From IMG/VR virus record IMGVR_UViG_3300025914_000022, positions 1 to 43,598 of that record: a stretch of DNA of 43,598 nt; one strand, written 5' to 3'. Below, in pieces: positions 2,484 to 8,745 of the stretch (the first letter of the stretch is position 1; every line of letters starts with the position of its first letter). This DNA is from a virus. Position numbers and translations under genes: made by a program. A model generated the notes under the pieces. It searched no databases, was not told the DNA's origin, and was given only the letters and a program-made list of their open reading frames with translations.

Positions 2484-2768
2484 GTGACCCGCAAAATTTC
2501 CTTCGCCACAGCCCAGAGCGCCTACCCGCACCGCTACACCATGGACCATGTTCCCGCATGGGCTCACGAAGCCCCCGACAGCGGCGCTCATCGCGGCGAC
2601 CCGATCCGCCCAGGCTACTACGCTCCGCAATTTCGCAGCGACCAGGAATGGTACGAAAACACCCGCTTCCCAGGCGAAGCCGGGCATTTCGGCGACAAGG
2701 ACTCTTGCTTCACCAGCGGCCAAACATGGCCTTTGGGCAAGTGGCTCGAAAAGCCCTACCGCCCTTGA
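2484..2768 (+). CDS. Small conserved-type hypothetical protein
   Basis: About 94 residues from a GTG at 2484; an in-frame ATG at 2541 is the alternative start. It is Trp/Tyr-rich with many charged residues (RPGYYAPQFRSDQEWYENT, then FPGEAGHFGDKDSC) and ends WPLGKWLEKPYRP. There is no recognisable domain. The reading frame stays open far upstream, but that part is antiphase to the preceding gene and is discarded. Its stop codon is followed immediately by RNA leader copy A. Confidence 0.6.
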   Translation: MTRKISFATAQSAYPHRYTMDHVPAWAHEAPDSGAHRGDPIRPGYYAPQFRSDQEWYENTRFPGEAGHFGDKDSCFTSGQTWPLGKWLEKPYRP

Positions 2769-2858
2769 GCCCTTCGGTTAGCGGCGCCTCACCTCGCCGC
2801 CTTCCGAAGCGCTACCGCAATCGCGCTTCATTCGAAAAACCCCGCAGGACCATCGCCC
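2769..2858 (+). ncRNA. Structured RNA leader, copy A
   Basis: One of three homologous intercistronic elements. It begins at the base after the upstream TGA and ends at the ATG at 2859. Parts in order: CCTTCGG (2771-2777), which can pair with CCGAAG (2804-2809); an inner stem GCGGCG/CGCCGC (2781-2786 with 2795-2800, 8-base loop); then GAAGCGC (2806-2812), which pairs with GCGCTTC (2823-2829) around a loop containing the shared GCAATC. The inner stem differs in sequence from copies B and C but keeps its pairing. Confidence 0.75.
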
Positions 2859-3287
2859 ATGATCACCATTCTTTCCGCCCTCACCCGCAGCAAGGCCGCT
2901 GGCCTGACCATCAGCGTCGATGGCCAGTATCTCACCTTCCATCGCCAGGGACAGGCCGTCGAAGCCGGCCGAACCCTCATTTCCGATTGCTTTGTTTCCG
3001 AGCATGCCGTGGACAGTATCTGCAAGGGCGGACCCATCGACCCGCGCCACCCCTTGCAGATTTCCGCCGACTGGATCGCCCGGCAGTTTCGCGAGCGCGC
3101 CAACGACACCCGCGACGACATCGCCGAACAAGACGCTGCCGAGGCCGAAGCGGTGCGCGAAGCCATCAAGGATCACCTCGCGATCAAACAGGAGGTGAAG
3201 GCTTACAACGAGGCGTTGAACACCGCCGAACGCGTTCCCACTGCGGACGACTATAACGAACTCCTCAACATCATCGGAATCGCCTGA
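2859..3287 (+). CDS. Hypothetical protein downstream of RNA leader A
   Basis: 142 residues, unrecognised. The N-terminal 50 residues look like a small beta fold (TISVDGQYLTFHRQG), followed by a helical, strongly acidic middle (TRDDIAEQDAAEAEAVREAI, about residues 88-107) and a helical C-terminus. No membrane segment. It is the first gene after leader copy A, so if the leader acts in cis this is the most likely target. The GCAGGAC box upstream of the ATG (2844-2850) may serve as the ribosome binding site and matches the GAGGAC/AAGGAC boxes in front of the genes behind copies B and C. Confidence 0.7.
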   Translation: MITILSALTRSKAAGLTISVDGQYLTFHRQGQAVEAGRTLISDCFVSEHAVDSICKGGPIDPRHPLQISADWIARQFRERANDTRDDIAEQDAAEAEAVREAIKDHLAIKQEVKAYNEALNTAERVPTADDYNELLNIIGIA

Positions 3288-3302
3288 ATAGGAATCACCG
3301 CC

Positions 3303-3608
3303 GTGACAATGCTTTACACGCTTTCTTTCTCACGCCACGTCCCCGGCTTTGCCGCGAGCGTTCGTACAACCCCGCGCCAGCTCGCCGGCTATCTCAACAC
3401 CGAAACGAGCGAGCTTGTCGGCCCCGACCTCGCCGCCGTCCGCGAAGCCTTGCCGCCTCACTGGCGCCCCGCCTTCGACCGCAATCGCGACTTTTGGTTT
3501 CCGAAGGACGATGCGCGCGGCATGCCCTCAATGGAGCTTCGCGACAAGCGCGGGAAGTACCTCACCACGCTTTACGCAAAACCCTACTACTACAACCCGA
3601 AGGCCTGA
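3303..3608 (+). CDS. Small hypothetical protein
   Basis: 101 residues from GTG 3303, or 99 from the in-frame ATG 3309. The upstream AGGAAT (3290-3295) is a weak ribosome binding site. Soluble and aromatic-rich, with Arg- and Tyr-rich ends (FSRHVPGFAASVRTTPRQ; TLYAKPYYYNPKA). No known domain. It sits 15 bases after the preceding gene and 4 bases before the next, so it is co-transcribed. Confidence 0.65.
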   Translation: MTMLYTLSFSRHVPGFAASVRTTPRQLAGYLNTETSELVGPDLAAVREALPPHWRPAFDRNRDFWFPKDDARGMPSMELRDKRGKYLTTLYAKPYYYNPKA

Positions 3609-3612
3609 CCCC

Positions 3613-4035
3613 ATGCCCGAATTTATCCTGTCCGGCGGACCCGGCATCGAGGCCGTCGAAGCTTTCAATCATCTCGACGCCTTTACGCGCGGCTACATCG
3701 AGGCGCTTTTCTTCACCGAGACCAGCGACCCCGCCGACGAGCTGGCCGGCATGACCGTCAGCGACATTCACCCCGACACGCTCGAAGCCATCAAGCGCGA
3801 CTGTGTCCGCTTCCAGGTCGAAAATTGCGACTGCCTCGCCCTCGCTTATGAGGGCGCCTACGACGACACGTCGGCCGGCCGCGATTTTTGGTGCACCCGA
3901 AACGGCCATGGTGTCGGCTATTGGGACCGCCTCGAATTGCCCCAGGCCGTGCAGGACGCCTTGACGAAGGCCGCCGAACAATGGGGCCAGACGGACGCCT
4001 ACAAGGGCGATGACGGCTTTCTGCATCTCGATTGA
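3613..4035 (+). CDS. Conserved phage/plasmid hypothetical (DFW-TRNGHG family)
   Basis: 140 residues. The signature is in the C-terminal half: a Tyr/Asp-rich turn followed by DFWCTRNGHGVGYWDR (about residues 95-110) and a short helix. This motif is widespread in small proteins of unknown function in phages and conjugative elements of Proteobacteria. The N-terminal half is helical (TRGYIEALFFTETSDPADEL). It may belong to one of the named DUF families, but I cannot assign it with certainty. Leader copy B begins right after its stop codon. Confidence 0.75.
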   Translation: MPEFILSGGPGIEAVEAFNHLDAFTRGYIEALFFTETSDPADELAGMTVSDIHPDTLEAIKRDCVRFQVENCDCLALAYEGAYDDTSAGRDFWCTRNGHGVGYWDRLELPQAVQDALTKAAEQWGQTDAYKGDDGFLHLD

Positions 4036-4118
4036 AGACCCTTCGCAGCGGGACCGCACGCCGGCCCCGTCACGAAGCGCCCGCAATCCGCTTCAACCCC
4101 GACCACCACGAGGACAGC
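4036..4118 (+). ncRNA. Structured RNA leader, copy B
   Basis: Second homologous intercistronic element, directly after the TGA at 4033-4035. CCCTTCG (4039-4045) can pair with CGAAG (4073-4077). The inner stem is CGGGACCG/CGGCCCCG (4049-4056 with 4062-4069, one A-C mismatch, loop CACGC). A second hairpin pairs GAAGCG (4074-4079) with CGCTTC (4089-4094) around CCCGCAATC. The ribosome binding site GAGGAC follows at 4110-4115. The inner stem sequence is unlike A and C, but the fold is the same. Confidence 0.75.
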
Positions 4119-4397
4119 ATGTTCCAGGCAATCACTACGAAATACTTCGGCCCCTCCAACGCGCGCGGCTCACGCATCAAGGCCAAGGCCGCCGCCGGTT
4201 CCATCATGGTCAGCTACAGCTACAGCTTGAACCCCGAGCAGAACCACGCCGCCGCCGCTCAGGCCCTCGCCCTGAAATTCGGATGGGGCGGCGATTGGTA
4301 CGCAGGCGGCATGCCCGAGGAAAACGGCAACGTCTATGTCTGCATTTCGGTCAAGCACCCCGAAGCGCCGGCCTTCACCACGCCGCAGAAGGCCTGA
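4119..4397 (+). CDS. Conserved small protein (MFQAITTKYFGP family)
   Basis: 92 residues. The opening MFQAITTKYFGPSNARGSR followed by IKAKAAAGS and a run with NHAAAAQALALKFGW matches a small family common on proteobacterial plasmids, integrative elements and phages; its function is not established. It looks like a compact alpha/beta fold with no membrane segment. The ATG at 4119 was chosen because the family N-terminus begins there and GAGGAC lies upstream. An in-frame ATG at 4032 would place leader B inside the coding sequence. It is the first gene behind leader copy B. Confidence 0.8.
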   Translation: MFQAITTKYFGPSNARGSRIKAKAAAGSIMVSYSYSLNPEQNHAAAAQALALKFGWGGDWYAGGMPEENGNVYVCISVKHPEAPAFTTPQKA

Positions 4398-4792
4398 TGC
4401 ACATGGCCCTCATCCCCGCCTATCTCACCGAGGCCGCCGCCGCGCTCGATAGCCCGATGGCCTGCGGCGCCACCCTCACGGCCAAGCAGGCCCACGCCGT
4501 CGCCCTGCACCGCACCCAGGAGGCCTATCGCGCCCTCGCCGATTATCGCGAGCGCGTCGCCCAGGCCCTCCGCGCCATCGACGAGACCTTGGCCAACGGC
4601 CAGCGGCTCAACCATCATGAGATGGACGAGCCCCGCTATTCGTCTGTCGTGTCGTCGATCCGCGCCGCCAACTTTCGAAACGCCCTCTACGGCTTGCGCA
4701 ACGCTCACTCGTTCCTGTTGGCGGACGCCGCCGAAACCCGCGCCTGCCTCGCCCGCCAGCGGGCCGAGCGCTTTGCCGACGCGGAGGCCTGA
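4397..4792 (+). CDS. Hypothetical helical protein
   Basis: 131 residues starting at an ATG that overlaps the upstream stop (TGATG), a sign of translational coupling; a second ATG lies six bases on. Predicted all-helical, Ala/Arg-rich, no membrane segment. The middle carries TAKQAHAVALHRTQEAYRAL, and the C-terminal half is a likely long helix. Unrecognised. Confidence 0.65.
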   Translation: MHMALIPAYLTEAAAALDSPMACGATLTAKQAHAVALHRTQEAYRALADYRERVAQALRAIDETLANGQRLNHHEMDEPRYSSVVSSIRAANFRNALYGLRNAHSFLLADAAETRACLARQRAERFADAEA

Positions 4793-4793
4793 C

Positions 4794-5030
4794 ATGCACA
4801 TCTATGCATCCAGCCCGATCGAGATCGCCGCCAGCATGGACGCCGTCGAGGCGCAATTCATGCGCAACACCCTTCGCGAAGCGGCAGCCAATGCCAACGC
4901 CGCCGCGCAGAAGGCCAAAAGCTTCGCCCAGGTGCAGGCCTGCAAGACCGCCGCCATCCGCGCCCAGCAGCTCGCCGACCAGCTCGACCGCGCCATTACC
5001 AAGCAAACCGCCCTGCGCCGGAGGGCCTGA
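4794..5030 (+). CDS. Small hypothetical helical protein
   Basis: 78 residues, almost entirely helix and Ala-rich (LREAAANANAAAQKAKSFAQ), probably a coiled coil. It starts one base after the preceding stop and ends one base before the next ATG. No recognised family. The tight spacing at both ends supports it as a genuine member of the operon. Confidence 0.6.
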   Translation: MHIYASSPIEIAASMDAVEAQFMRNTLREAAANANAAAQKAKSFAQVQACKTAAIRAQQLADQLDRAITKQTALRRRA

Positions 5031-5031
5031 C

Positions 5032-5109
5032 ATGCTCGAATCCATCGCAACCGCCATCGTCTTGTGCTGGCTCCTGCACAAGCTGTTCTTTGAGGAGAAA
5101 AAGCCGTGA
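5032..5109 (+). CDS. 25-residue putative membrane peptide
   Basis: A very short frame, MLESIATAIVLCWLLHKLFFEEKKP. Residues 4-20 are hydrophobic and could form one short transmembrane or membrane-associated helix with a charged tail. It fits exactly between its neighbours: its ATG follows the preceding TGA by one base, and its stop overlaps the GTG of the next gene. That placement argues for real translation, but it could also just be a spacer that carries the next ribosome binding site (GAGGAG at 5091-5096). Confidence 0.45.
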   Translation: MLESIATAIVLCWLLHKLFFEEKKP

Positions 5110-5396
5110 ACCGCCCTCTTCTGTTGCCCCACCAGCTCAGCCGCCTGCCCTTCCACAAGGGCGAGCCCGTCCGCACCAAAGTTGCCACCCTCGGCGATGA
5201 CGACGAGGGCAACGAGCTTGAATTCTCCGCCGGCGCCCGTGGCCGCATCGAGGATATCGAGGACTACGGCAACACCCAAGGCATCGCCTATACGGTGTGG
5301 ATTCCGCTCTACCCCGACGACCCCGATAGCCGAGGCATCGTCAACGTCTTTGACGAGGAGGACGGCCCCATCACCGACTTTCTCGAAACAGCTTGA
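5106..5396 (+). CDS. Small acidic hypothetical protein
   Basis: 96 residues from a GTG that overlaps the upstream stop, with a strong GAGGAG ribosome binding site about ten bases upstream. Notably acidic (ATLGDDDEGNELEFSAGARG; YPDDPDSRG; FDEEDGP), no membrane segment. A net-negative, compact beta-type protein would fit a DNA-mimic or inhibitor, but that is speculation. Leader copy C starts right after its stop. Confidence 0.65.
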   Translation: MNRPLLLPHQLSRLPFHKGEPVRTKVATLGDDDEGNELEFSAGARGRIEDIEDYGNTQGIAYTVWIPLYPDDPDSRGIVNVFDEEDGPITDFLETA

Positions 5397-5481
5397 GCCC
5401 TTCGCAGGACGGCGCCGCGCGCGCCGTCTCACGAAGCGCTGCAATCCGCTTCATCGTGCAACCCACAAGGACCCCCCTGTC
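5397..5481 (+). ncRNA. Structured RNA leader, copy C
   Basis: Third homologous element, directly after the TGA at 5394-5396. CTTCG (5400-5404) can pair with CGAAG (5432-5436). The inner stem is a perfect 8-bp GACGGCGC/GCGCCGTC (5408-5415 with 5421-5428, loop CGCGC). The second hairpin pairs GAAGCG (5433-5438) with CGCTTC (5447-5452) around CTGCAATC. An AAGGAC box follows about ten bases before the ATG at 5482. Confidence 0.75.
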
Positions 5482-5793
5482 ATGTATCGCTTTGCCCTCA
5501 CCTTCGAAATCGTCACCCCCGAGAGCGCCGCGCACAACGACAACACCGCCGCCGGCTACCTCGCCCGTGAACTGACTTTCCGCGAGGCCGTCGCCTTGTT
5601 CGACGACGAGCGCGGCGGCCGTTTCGTCGAGGCCGACATGGATCAGCTGCACGCCCCGCGCGAGCTGCGCGACCAGGGCCGGTTCGATCCGCGCACCAAT
5701 GAGCAGCGCAGCATTGCCCTGCACATCCCCGCCAACGTCACGCCGGCCAGCCGTCGCCGCATCGCCCGCGTGCTGCATTGCGAGGGCGTCTGA
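5482..5793 (+). CDS. Hypothetical protein downstream of RNA leader C
   Basis: 103 residues, unrecognised, soluble. It opens MYRFALTFEIVTPESAAHND, probably a beta strand, and has a helix-rich middle with acidic and Arg residues (LTFREAVALFDDERGGRFVE). An upstream-extended frame is open but runs through the leader, so the ATG at 5482 is preferred. First gene behind leader copy C. Its stop overlaps the next start (TGATG). Confidence 0.65.
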   Translation: MYRFALTFEIVTPESAAHNDNTAAGYLARELTFREAVALFDDERGGRFVEADMDQLHAPRELRDQGRFDPRTNEQRSIALHIPANVTPASRRRIARVLHCEGV

Positions 5794-6062
5794 TGGGCTG
5801 GCGCATCCTCACGGCAAACCGAAAGTACATCGGCGACGACGAGGGCAAAATCCTTGTCGCCCGCCTGTTGGGCAACGAAGAGCAGCGGCGCCTTTTGGCG
5901 CCGCTTGTCGTCGCCGCGCCGCAGATGCTGGCCGCCTTGGAACACCTCGCCAGCGTCCTTGCCATCGAAGCCGTTACGGTGCGCGGCAGCAATGCCCGCG
6001 ACCTGAAAAACTCGTTCCGCGAGATCATCGAAACCACCATTGCCAAAGCCAAAGGAGCCTGA
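5793..6062 (+). CDS. Small hypothetical protein
   Basis: 89 residues, coupled to the upstream gene by a TGATG overlap. It begins MGWRILTANRKYIGDDEGK and continues into a mostly helical stretch (PLVVAAPQMLAALEHLASVL). The second half resembles the short helical repeat seen in many phage proteins with a MLAAL-E-x-L pattern. Function unknown. Confidence 0.65.
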   Translation: MGWRILTANRKYIGDDEGKILVARLLGNEEQRRLLAPLVVAAPQMLAALEHLASVLAIEAVTVRGSNARDLKNSFREIIETTIAKAKGA

Positions 6063-8642: not shown

Positions 8643-8719
8643 TGGAGGGCCAGACGGGATTCGAACCCGCGAGCGTGGGGATTAGAGGCCCCTGCCCGAA
8701 CCAATCCAAGCCCTGACCA
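8643..8719 (-). tRNA. Divergent phage tRNA, anticodon unclear (UCU or CUA)
   Basis: On the minus strand this 77-base segment ends in an encoded CCA (8645-8643) and has an acceptor stem TGGTCAG/CTGGCCC with six of seven pairs (position 1-72 is T-C). It has a short D-arm with GG in the loop, an anticodon arm centred on GGGGCCTCTAATCCCC, a variable segment, and a classic T-arm (GCGGG TTCGAAT CCCGT). U8 is missing. Read as AGGGG-CCTCTAA-TCCCC the anticodon is UCU (Arg) with an unusual C33. Read with a canonical U33 and A37 (CTCTAAT) it is CUA, an amber reader, but then two stem pairs fail. It sits in a 195-base gap between two minus-strand genes, as expected of a phage tRNA. Confidence 0.6.
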
Positions 8720-8727
8720 TCCCAGTC

Positions 8728-8745
8728 GATCCGAATTTTCTGGAA
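8728..8745 (-). promoter_or_regulatory. Candidate repressor operator (site 5)
   Basis: On the minus strand TTCCAGAAAATTCGGATC, matching 15 of 18 positions of the site between cro and cI. It sits nine bases upstream of the tRNA 5' end and just beyond the HNH stop codon, so it could control an internal promoter for the tRNA and the last gene of the operon. Confidence 0.5.

Follow-up and report, generated by a model that had tools for sequence, protein, structure and literature searches.

A probable conserved RNA element with two competing helices in the stop-to-start gaps of phage operons

In the viral DNA record IMGVR_UViG_3300025914_000022 of IMG/VR (positions 1 to 43,598; the whole 43,598-nucleotide stretch analysed here is called the window) one operon contains the same short element three times, each time between the stop codon of one gene and the start codon of the next, which raises the question of what such an element does there. 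The original prediction, made from the sequence of the window, described it as a conserved cis-acting RNA, or a family of processed small RNAs, specific to this accessory operon. We concluded that the element is very probably a conserved sense-strand RNA, and both its structure and its niche are well supported. It forms a family and is not private to the operon; the earlier observation was correct and understated.

Copies of the element in the window and in other viruses

The gaps at 2769-2858, 4036-4118 and 5397-5481 are filled by copies of the element, each running from a TGA stop codon to an ATG, at 2859, 4119 and 5482 respectively, exactly as predicted. The core CGAAGCG-N-GCAATC-N-CGCTTC matched three times in the window, always within these gaps, and 0 times in 100 dinucleotide shuffles. 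Along the operon stretch from 1370 to approx. 6500 the three gaps are the sole junctions longer than 50 nucleotides (nt), the others measuring 0-35 nt in our reading of the open reading frames. The copies are listed with their scores in R3, the final covariance model, built on all seven copies described below, and for c2 and c3 also in R2:

2769..2830, plus strand: copy c1, CUUCGG/CCGAAG subtype with a 3x3 internal loop; R3 59.7 bits; directly after TGA 2766-2768
4038..4095, plus strand: copy c2, CUUCG/CGAAG subtype with a CA/CA internal loop; R2 78.5 bits, R3 37.1 bits; after TGA 4033-4035
5397..5453, plus strand: copy c3, same subtype as c2; R2 76 bits, R3 36.8 bits; after TGA 5394-5396

The folding stability compared with shuffles was z -4.1 for c1 and z -2.6 for c3. 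Copy c2 alone (z -0.6) was not stronger than its shuffles, and the case for the element therefore rests on comparison.

The covariance model R1, made from c1-c3, was searched against 80 viral loci obtained via relatives of phrog_3199, the family of the gene behind c2. A single strong match was obtained, c4 (L292, 5909-5958, 42 bits), directly before a phrog_3199 gene. Copy c5 was located in virus G399 by a sequence pattern from the updated consensus, and a divergent sixth copy in the same virus, c6, was pointed out by the model at 15.6 bits. Copy c7 was located in G1220 by a pattern built for the subtype of c1 and c6. This brought the total to seven copies in four viruses (the window phage, L292, G399 and G1220). 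In R3 the seven copies scored 36.8-59.7 bits and the next match 22; the scores of c1-c7 are high by construction, and independent support comes from the way in which each copy turned up and from its position.

The location was the same throughout. The CUU of the 5' strand (strand 1) starts 0-5 nt past the stop codon in 7/7 copies, and the start codon lies 15-34 nt beyond the last hairpin, P3, in every copy, with the Shine-Dalgarno sequence in between. All seven copies point in the same direction as the genes. A simple descriptor of the element, run over 4.5 megabases (Mb), recovered all seven copies, each after TGA; four or five further matches were returned, none of them after a stop codon, and reversed sequence gave two. 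The finding of further homologues with compensatory changes supports the predicted conserved cis-acting RNA. Its restriction to one accessory operon was wrong, since copies precede other genes in three other viruses.

No additional copy was detected by R3 on 88 loci, nor when 36 phrog_3199 viruses and 13 cultured phages were searched over their full records. Exact-core scans of viral contigs returned the same phage and chance matches only, and a scan of 85,000 species genomes gave, among the matches listed, chance matches in coding regions and the repeat TCATTGCGAGGAGCGAAGCGACGAAGCAATCC. In sampled alphaproteobacterial genomes, searched by covariance model and by pattern, no match with a P2 stem (the inner stem, described below) was found; the covariance-model part of this search was weak, with approx. 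13 candidates scored per genome. A sequence-free descriptor for diverged copies, applied to G399, G398 and G001, found none that was convincing. The repeat TCATTGCGAGGAGCGAAGCGACGAAGCAATCC is widespread in many unrelated genomes (L143, L148, L156, L198 and others) and contaminates pattern searches for CGAAGCG...GCAATC; we think that its CGAAGCG and GCAATC coincide with the element by chance.

Two further observations concern G399. A match at L439 16499-16552 (18.7 bits) was excluded from the count for want of strand 1; it consists of a hairpin followed by GGAAGCGCCAGGGCTTC in a gap, resembling P2 and P3 without strand 1, and is possibly a decayed copy. The virus record with c5 and c6 also contains, at L439 11516-11603 on the minus strand, a small RNA of the suhB/mmgR family that scores over the gathering cut-off of Rfam RF00519.

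A freely varying stem and two mutually exclusive helices

The central strand of the element, GAAGCG, is complementary both to strand 1, CUUCG, forming the helix P1, and to the 3' strand CGCUUC (strand 3), forming P3. In the first arrangement, fold A, P1 encloses the inner stem P2. P1 and P3 share GAAG and cannot coexist in full, and each is possible in 7/7 copies. The second, competing helix was absent from the original prediction. In the window the parts are:

2772..2777, plus strand: c1 strand 1, the 5' half of P1 (CUUCGG), partner 2804-2809; from sequence, with pair counts on alignment A9
2781..2800, plus strand: c1 hairpin P2, GCGGCG 2781-2786 / CGCCGC 2795-2800; covariation across 7 copies
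2806..2829, plus strand: c1 alternative hairpin P3, GAAGCG 2806-2811 / CGCUUC 2824-2829, with a 12-nt loop
2843..2861, plus strand: end of the c1 unstructured linker, a Shine-Dalgarno-like AGGA and then ATG 2859, read from sequence
4041..4077, plus strand: c2 fold A, P1 CUUCG 4041-4045 / CGAAG 4073-4077 enclosing P2 4048-4056 / 4062-4070
4074..4094, plus strand: c2 alternative hairpin P3, GAAGCG 4074-4079 / CGCUUC 4089-4094
5400..5436, plus strand: c3 fold A, P1 CUUCG 5400-5404 / CGAAG 5432-5436 enclosing P2 5407-5415 / 5421-5429
5433..5452, plus strand: c3 alternative hairpin P3, GAAGCG 5433-5438 / CGCUUC 5447-5452

Pairs were counted on alignment A9, in which the seven copies were hand-aligned through N-padding and on which the counts depend. 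Both sides had changed at 8 of the 9 pairs of P2, and 97.9% of the cells of fold A pair. The covariation of fold A was 0.47 compared with a shuffled mean of 0.17 (0/500), and slid partners gave at most 0.10. When five copies were aligned by R1 alone the picture was similar, with 7 pairs changed on both sides. The P2 stems of c2 and c3 comprise 9 positions with a closing G.U, and that of c2 holds one internal A.C mismatch (5'-GCGGGACCG / CGGCCCCGU). The inner stem differs in every window copy, as predicted, and the claim that it always pairs stands apart from this one mismatch. The shared motifs were likewise present in the three copies; GCAATC did not survive as a common feature, being a variable loop sequence that is missing from three of the four extra copies, with c6 retaining only AATC.

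The strand on which the element acts could be judged from its wobble pairs. P2 closes with a G.U pair in 6/7 copies, and c6 carries a U.G in P1 and a G.U in P3. As these would be A.C on the other strand, the sense strand is favoured; the A.C mismatches in c2 and c5 are two that oppose it, and the overall tally is 8 to 2 for sense. The same pairs bear on the reading that the element is a DNA-level repeat (for recombination, packaging or of the repetitive extragenic palindromic kind) that merely resembles an RNA, as its repetition and partly palindromic sequence between unrelated genes would suggest. We consider this extremely improbable: the spacing of P3 is variable, P2 is kept as pairing only and with G.U on the sense strand, the orientation and the position after stop codons are fixed, and the identical bases are too few for homologous recombination.

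P3 is paired in 7/7 copies, with one compensatory and one G.U change, both in c6, and the variation of P1 amounts to one U.G. In c6 all three strands have changed (strand 1 CCUUUCGG, centre CCGAAGGGCC, strand 3 GGCCUUUC) and both helices are kept. This speaks against sequence-specific recognition, and with it against a site bound by an RNA-binding protein of the phage or the host (an operator, an antitermination site or the site of a stabilising factor) that recognises the strands in one fold. Near-invariant strands around a P2 free to vary, and several sites per operon, as in a regulon, would suit such a site; one strand pairing with two partners explains the invariance as well, and the partner protein is hypothetical. 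We regard this reading as quite unlikely.

The copies fall into two subtypes. In c2-c5 strand 1 reads CUUCG and the internal loop is CA/CA; c1, c6 and c7 have CUUCGG (or CUUUCGG) and an internal loop of UCU or UUA/CUU. As the unpaired bases differ between the subtypes, no catalytic core is apparent. The loop of P3 is between 4 and 12 nt long, depending on the copy. In computed energy the two folds are close: the gap, calculated for six copies with trimmed ends, was 0.6-0.9 kcal/mol in c2, c4, c5 and c6 and approx. 2 kcal/mol in c1 and c3, reaching up to approx. 4 kcal/mol in c1 when its extra small hairpin was counted. On paper the two CUUC strands could also form a triple helix with GAAG, which is mirror-symmetric.

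Hammerhead ribozymes in the same gaps, and the surrounding genes

The gap before a phrog_3199 gene can be occupied by different RNAs. In L275 the phrog_3199 gene lies directly behind a type II hammerhead in the layout TGA-A-hammerhead-ATG, and in L012 a type II hammerhead is found in the gap before it; in L292 the corresponding gap contains the element (c4). Two hammerheads in L012, further along, and two in L017 were above the Rfam cut-off. The L275 hammerhead (5917-5971) has a perfect core and strong stems and is short; the model RF02276 at its cut-off does not report it, from which it follows that the Rfam threshold misses some hammerheads.

In two viruses hammerhead-like cores are also present at a distance of one gene from the element. 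In G399 such a core (L436, 1214-1269) stands before the gene that precedes c5. The core in G1220 (L523) comes after the gene behind c7 and begins immediately past the stop codon of that gene. The descriptor used for hammerheads gave 7 matches over 4.5 Mb, compared with 3 in the reversed control, and by a rough estimate a chance match within a few hundred bases of any of the seven elements is expected approx. 0.002 times.

The element thus resembles hammerhead II (RF02276) in occupying the same stop-to-start gaps, in its association with the phrog_3199 family, in abutting the stop codon and in occurring in several copies per operon. It differs in having no CUGANGA, GAAA or NUH core and in its topology, with two competing hairpins where the hammerhead has a three-way junction. 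No hammerhead core was found in any copy, none in the window or in 2700-5560 by Rfam scan, and none in the window by our own descriptor.

Rfam 15 gave no match in the window above the gathering cut-off, the best weak match on the element being on the minus strand with 15.9 bits (cut-off 49.4), and the relation to known structured RNA candidates that had been suggested found no counterpart in Rfam. A nested double pseudoknot of the hepatitis delta virus ribozyme type was rejected because only 2-3 nt separate P1 from the inner hairpin in all copies, an intrinsic terminator because no U run follows P2 or P3 in any copy, and an integron attC site because every copy has CGCUUC or GGCCUUUC at its 3' end and not a GTTRRRY box. 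The twister sister, pistol and hatchet ribozymes gave no Rfam match, and the element is without a conserved unpaired core.

A class of RNA not described before that cleaves itself (or is ribosome-gated and self-processing), swapped with hammerheads gap by gap and timed in its cutting by the third-strand switch, would fit the match of gene family and gap with hammerhead II. The internal loop, which is CA/CA in four copies and in the other three UCU or UUA/CUU, offers no common unpaired core for it, nor does the P3 loop, the conserved bases are almost all helical, and no known ribozyme in Rfam matches. We consider such a class very unlikely.

The genes next to the window copies are:

2859..3287, plus strand: gene behind c1, function unknown; none found in a phage homologue search
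3613..4035, plus strand: gene before c2, phrog_1915 family (E value 1.1e-26)
4119..4397, plus strand: gene behind c2, phrog_3199 family (MFQAITTKY..; E value 1.2e-19)
5482..5793, plus strand: gene behind c3, unknown, with distant relatives in Xanthomonas and Erythrobacter phages

As predicted, the genes behind c1, c2 and c3 are mutually unrelated by blastp. Within the phrog_1915 gene, the DNA at 3844-3930 is approx. 80% identical to that of Caulobacter jumbo phages and Erythrobacter phage XM05. The record G001 (69,948 bp) is 99.97% identical to the window and contains the same three copies; being the same phage, it adds no independent evidence. Its alignment with the window (loci L445-L448) wraps around the record ends with an overlap of approx. 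120 bp, suggesting a circular genome of approx. 69.8 kb of which the window would lack approx. 26 kb. On the minus strand at 8645-8730 the window resembles the 3' half of a transfer RNA (tRNA) gene (GCGGGTTCGAATCCCGTC ... TGGCCCTCCA), in which ARAGORN found no tRNA; this stretch could be the remnant of an attachment site.

Processing of phage messages and the alternative of translational coupling

Clustered hammerheads have been suggested to cut long phage transcripts into gene-length messenger RNAs (mRNAs), and cleavage in vivo was shown for one Agrobacterium hammerhead cluster expressed in E. coli (Perreault et al. 2011, PMC3088659). Given the niche that the element has in common with hammerheads, mRNA processing is a more likely use than the processed small RNAs that were also proposed for it, and we lean towards a role in the intercistronic processing or insulation of polycistronic phage transcripts.

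One route can be outlined from the folds. The nascent RNA would form a long irregular hairpin of P1, a 2x2 or 3x3 internal loop and P2, and a host endoribonuclease, most likely ribonuclease III (RNase III), would cut it in trans at or near the internal loop. Cleavage would release the central strand CGAAGCG, which would pair with CGCUUC as P3 and so cap the 5' end of the downstream mRNA, and P2 could shield the 3' end of the upstream one. We infer the cutting itself, the identity of the enzyme and the refolding step. Processing with refolding would explain at once the paired hairpin of free sequence, the internal loop of every copy, the strand with two partners, the placement between stop and start and the exchange with hammerheads.

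The RNase III signals of T7 early mRNA lie between early genes, several per operon, and take the form of irregular hairpins interrupted by an internal loop. The element is like them in its irregular P1-loop-P2 hairpin between genes, possible in 7/7 copies, with co-transcription inferred from gene order. It differs in its shorter helix and in having a conserved third strand as a rival partner for the central one, and cleavage is putative here.

Several points weigh against processing, the proposed route included. P1 and P2 together give approx. 12-17 bp with an internal loop, which is short for a classical RNase III substrate, and the cut site is putative. P1 and P3 are near-invariant, the carriers of the element being only four viruses, and their covariation comes from c6. 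The hammerhead-like cores near c5 and c7 depend on the descriptor and its ratio of real to reversed-control matches; Rfam gives the L523 core 17.9 bits (cut-off 37) and does not list the L436 core.

The main rival to processing is a bistable switch coupled to translation, in which a ribosome at the stop codon would cover strand 1 and leave P3 to form; with the upstream gene untranslated, P1 would form and strand 3 would be free to act downstream, e.g. on the Shine-Dalgarno sequence. Such mutually exclusive 1:2 and 2:3 pairing under ribosome control is known from ermC-type attenuators, which have a leader peptide with stalling. The element shares the exclusive helices and a strand 1 that the ribosome at the upstream stop could mask; it differs in having no stalling leader peptide and in engaging a fourth strand (the Shine-Dalgarno sequence) in only 3/7 copies.

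The closeness of strand 1 to the stop codon in every copy suits the switch, and in modelling, masking 15 nt from the stop led to P3 in 6/7 copies (probability 0.84-1.00; c5 0.08). Strand 3 is strongly complementary to the Shine-Dalgarno sequence in c4, c5 and c7 (5-bp duplexes, -5.7 to -5.9 kcal/mol). In c1, c2, c3 and c6, however, this pairing is poor, no better than with shuffled linkers, and sequestration of the Shine-Dalgarno sequence was therefore rejected as a general feature. Masking clearly alters the accessibility of that sequence in c7 only, and hammerheads, which do not depend on coupling, also abut the stop codon, so that abutment may be mere compactness. We consider the switch unlikely.

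Returning to processing, the host-RNase cut-and-refold route specifically is rather doubtful. The best explanation as a whole, a cis-acting gene separator that does the job of hammerhead II, the cut-and-refold proposal included, is put forward tentatively, with doubt slightly outweighing confidence.

The presence of an unrelated RNA in the same gap before the same gene family, sometimes one gene from a hammerhead, offers a direct test of what hammerhead ribozymes do in phage operons: if both RNAs make message ends at that gap, their common function is transcript processing. The element itself is a small RNA family without an Rfam entry. Its design is two-state, with a single strand that can pair with either of two others, and it probably represents a new means of cutting or insulating long phage messages.

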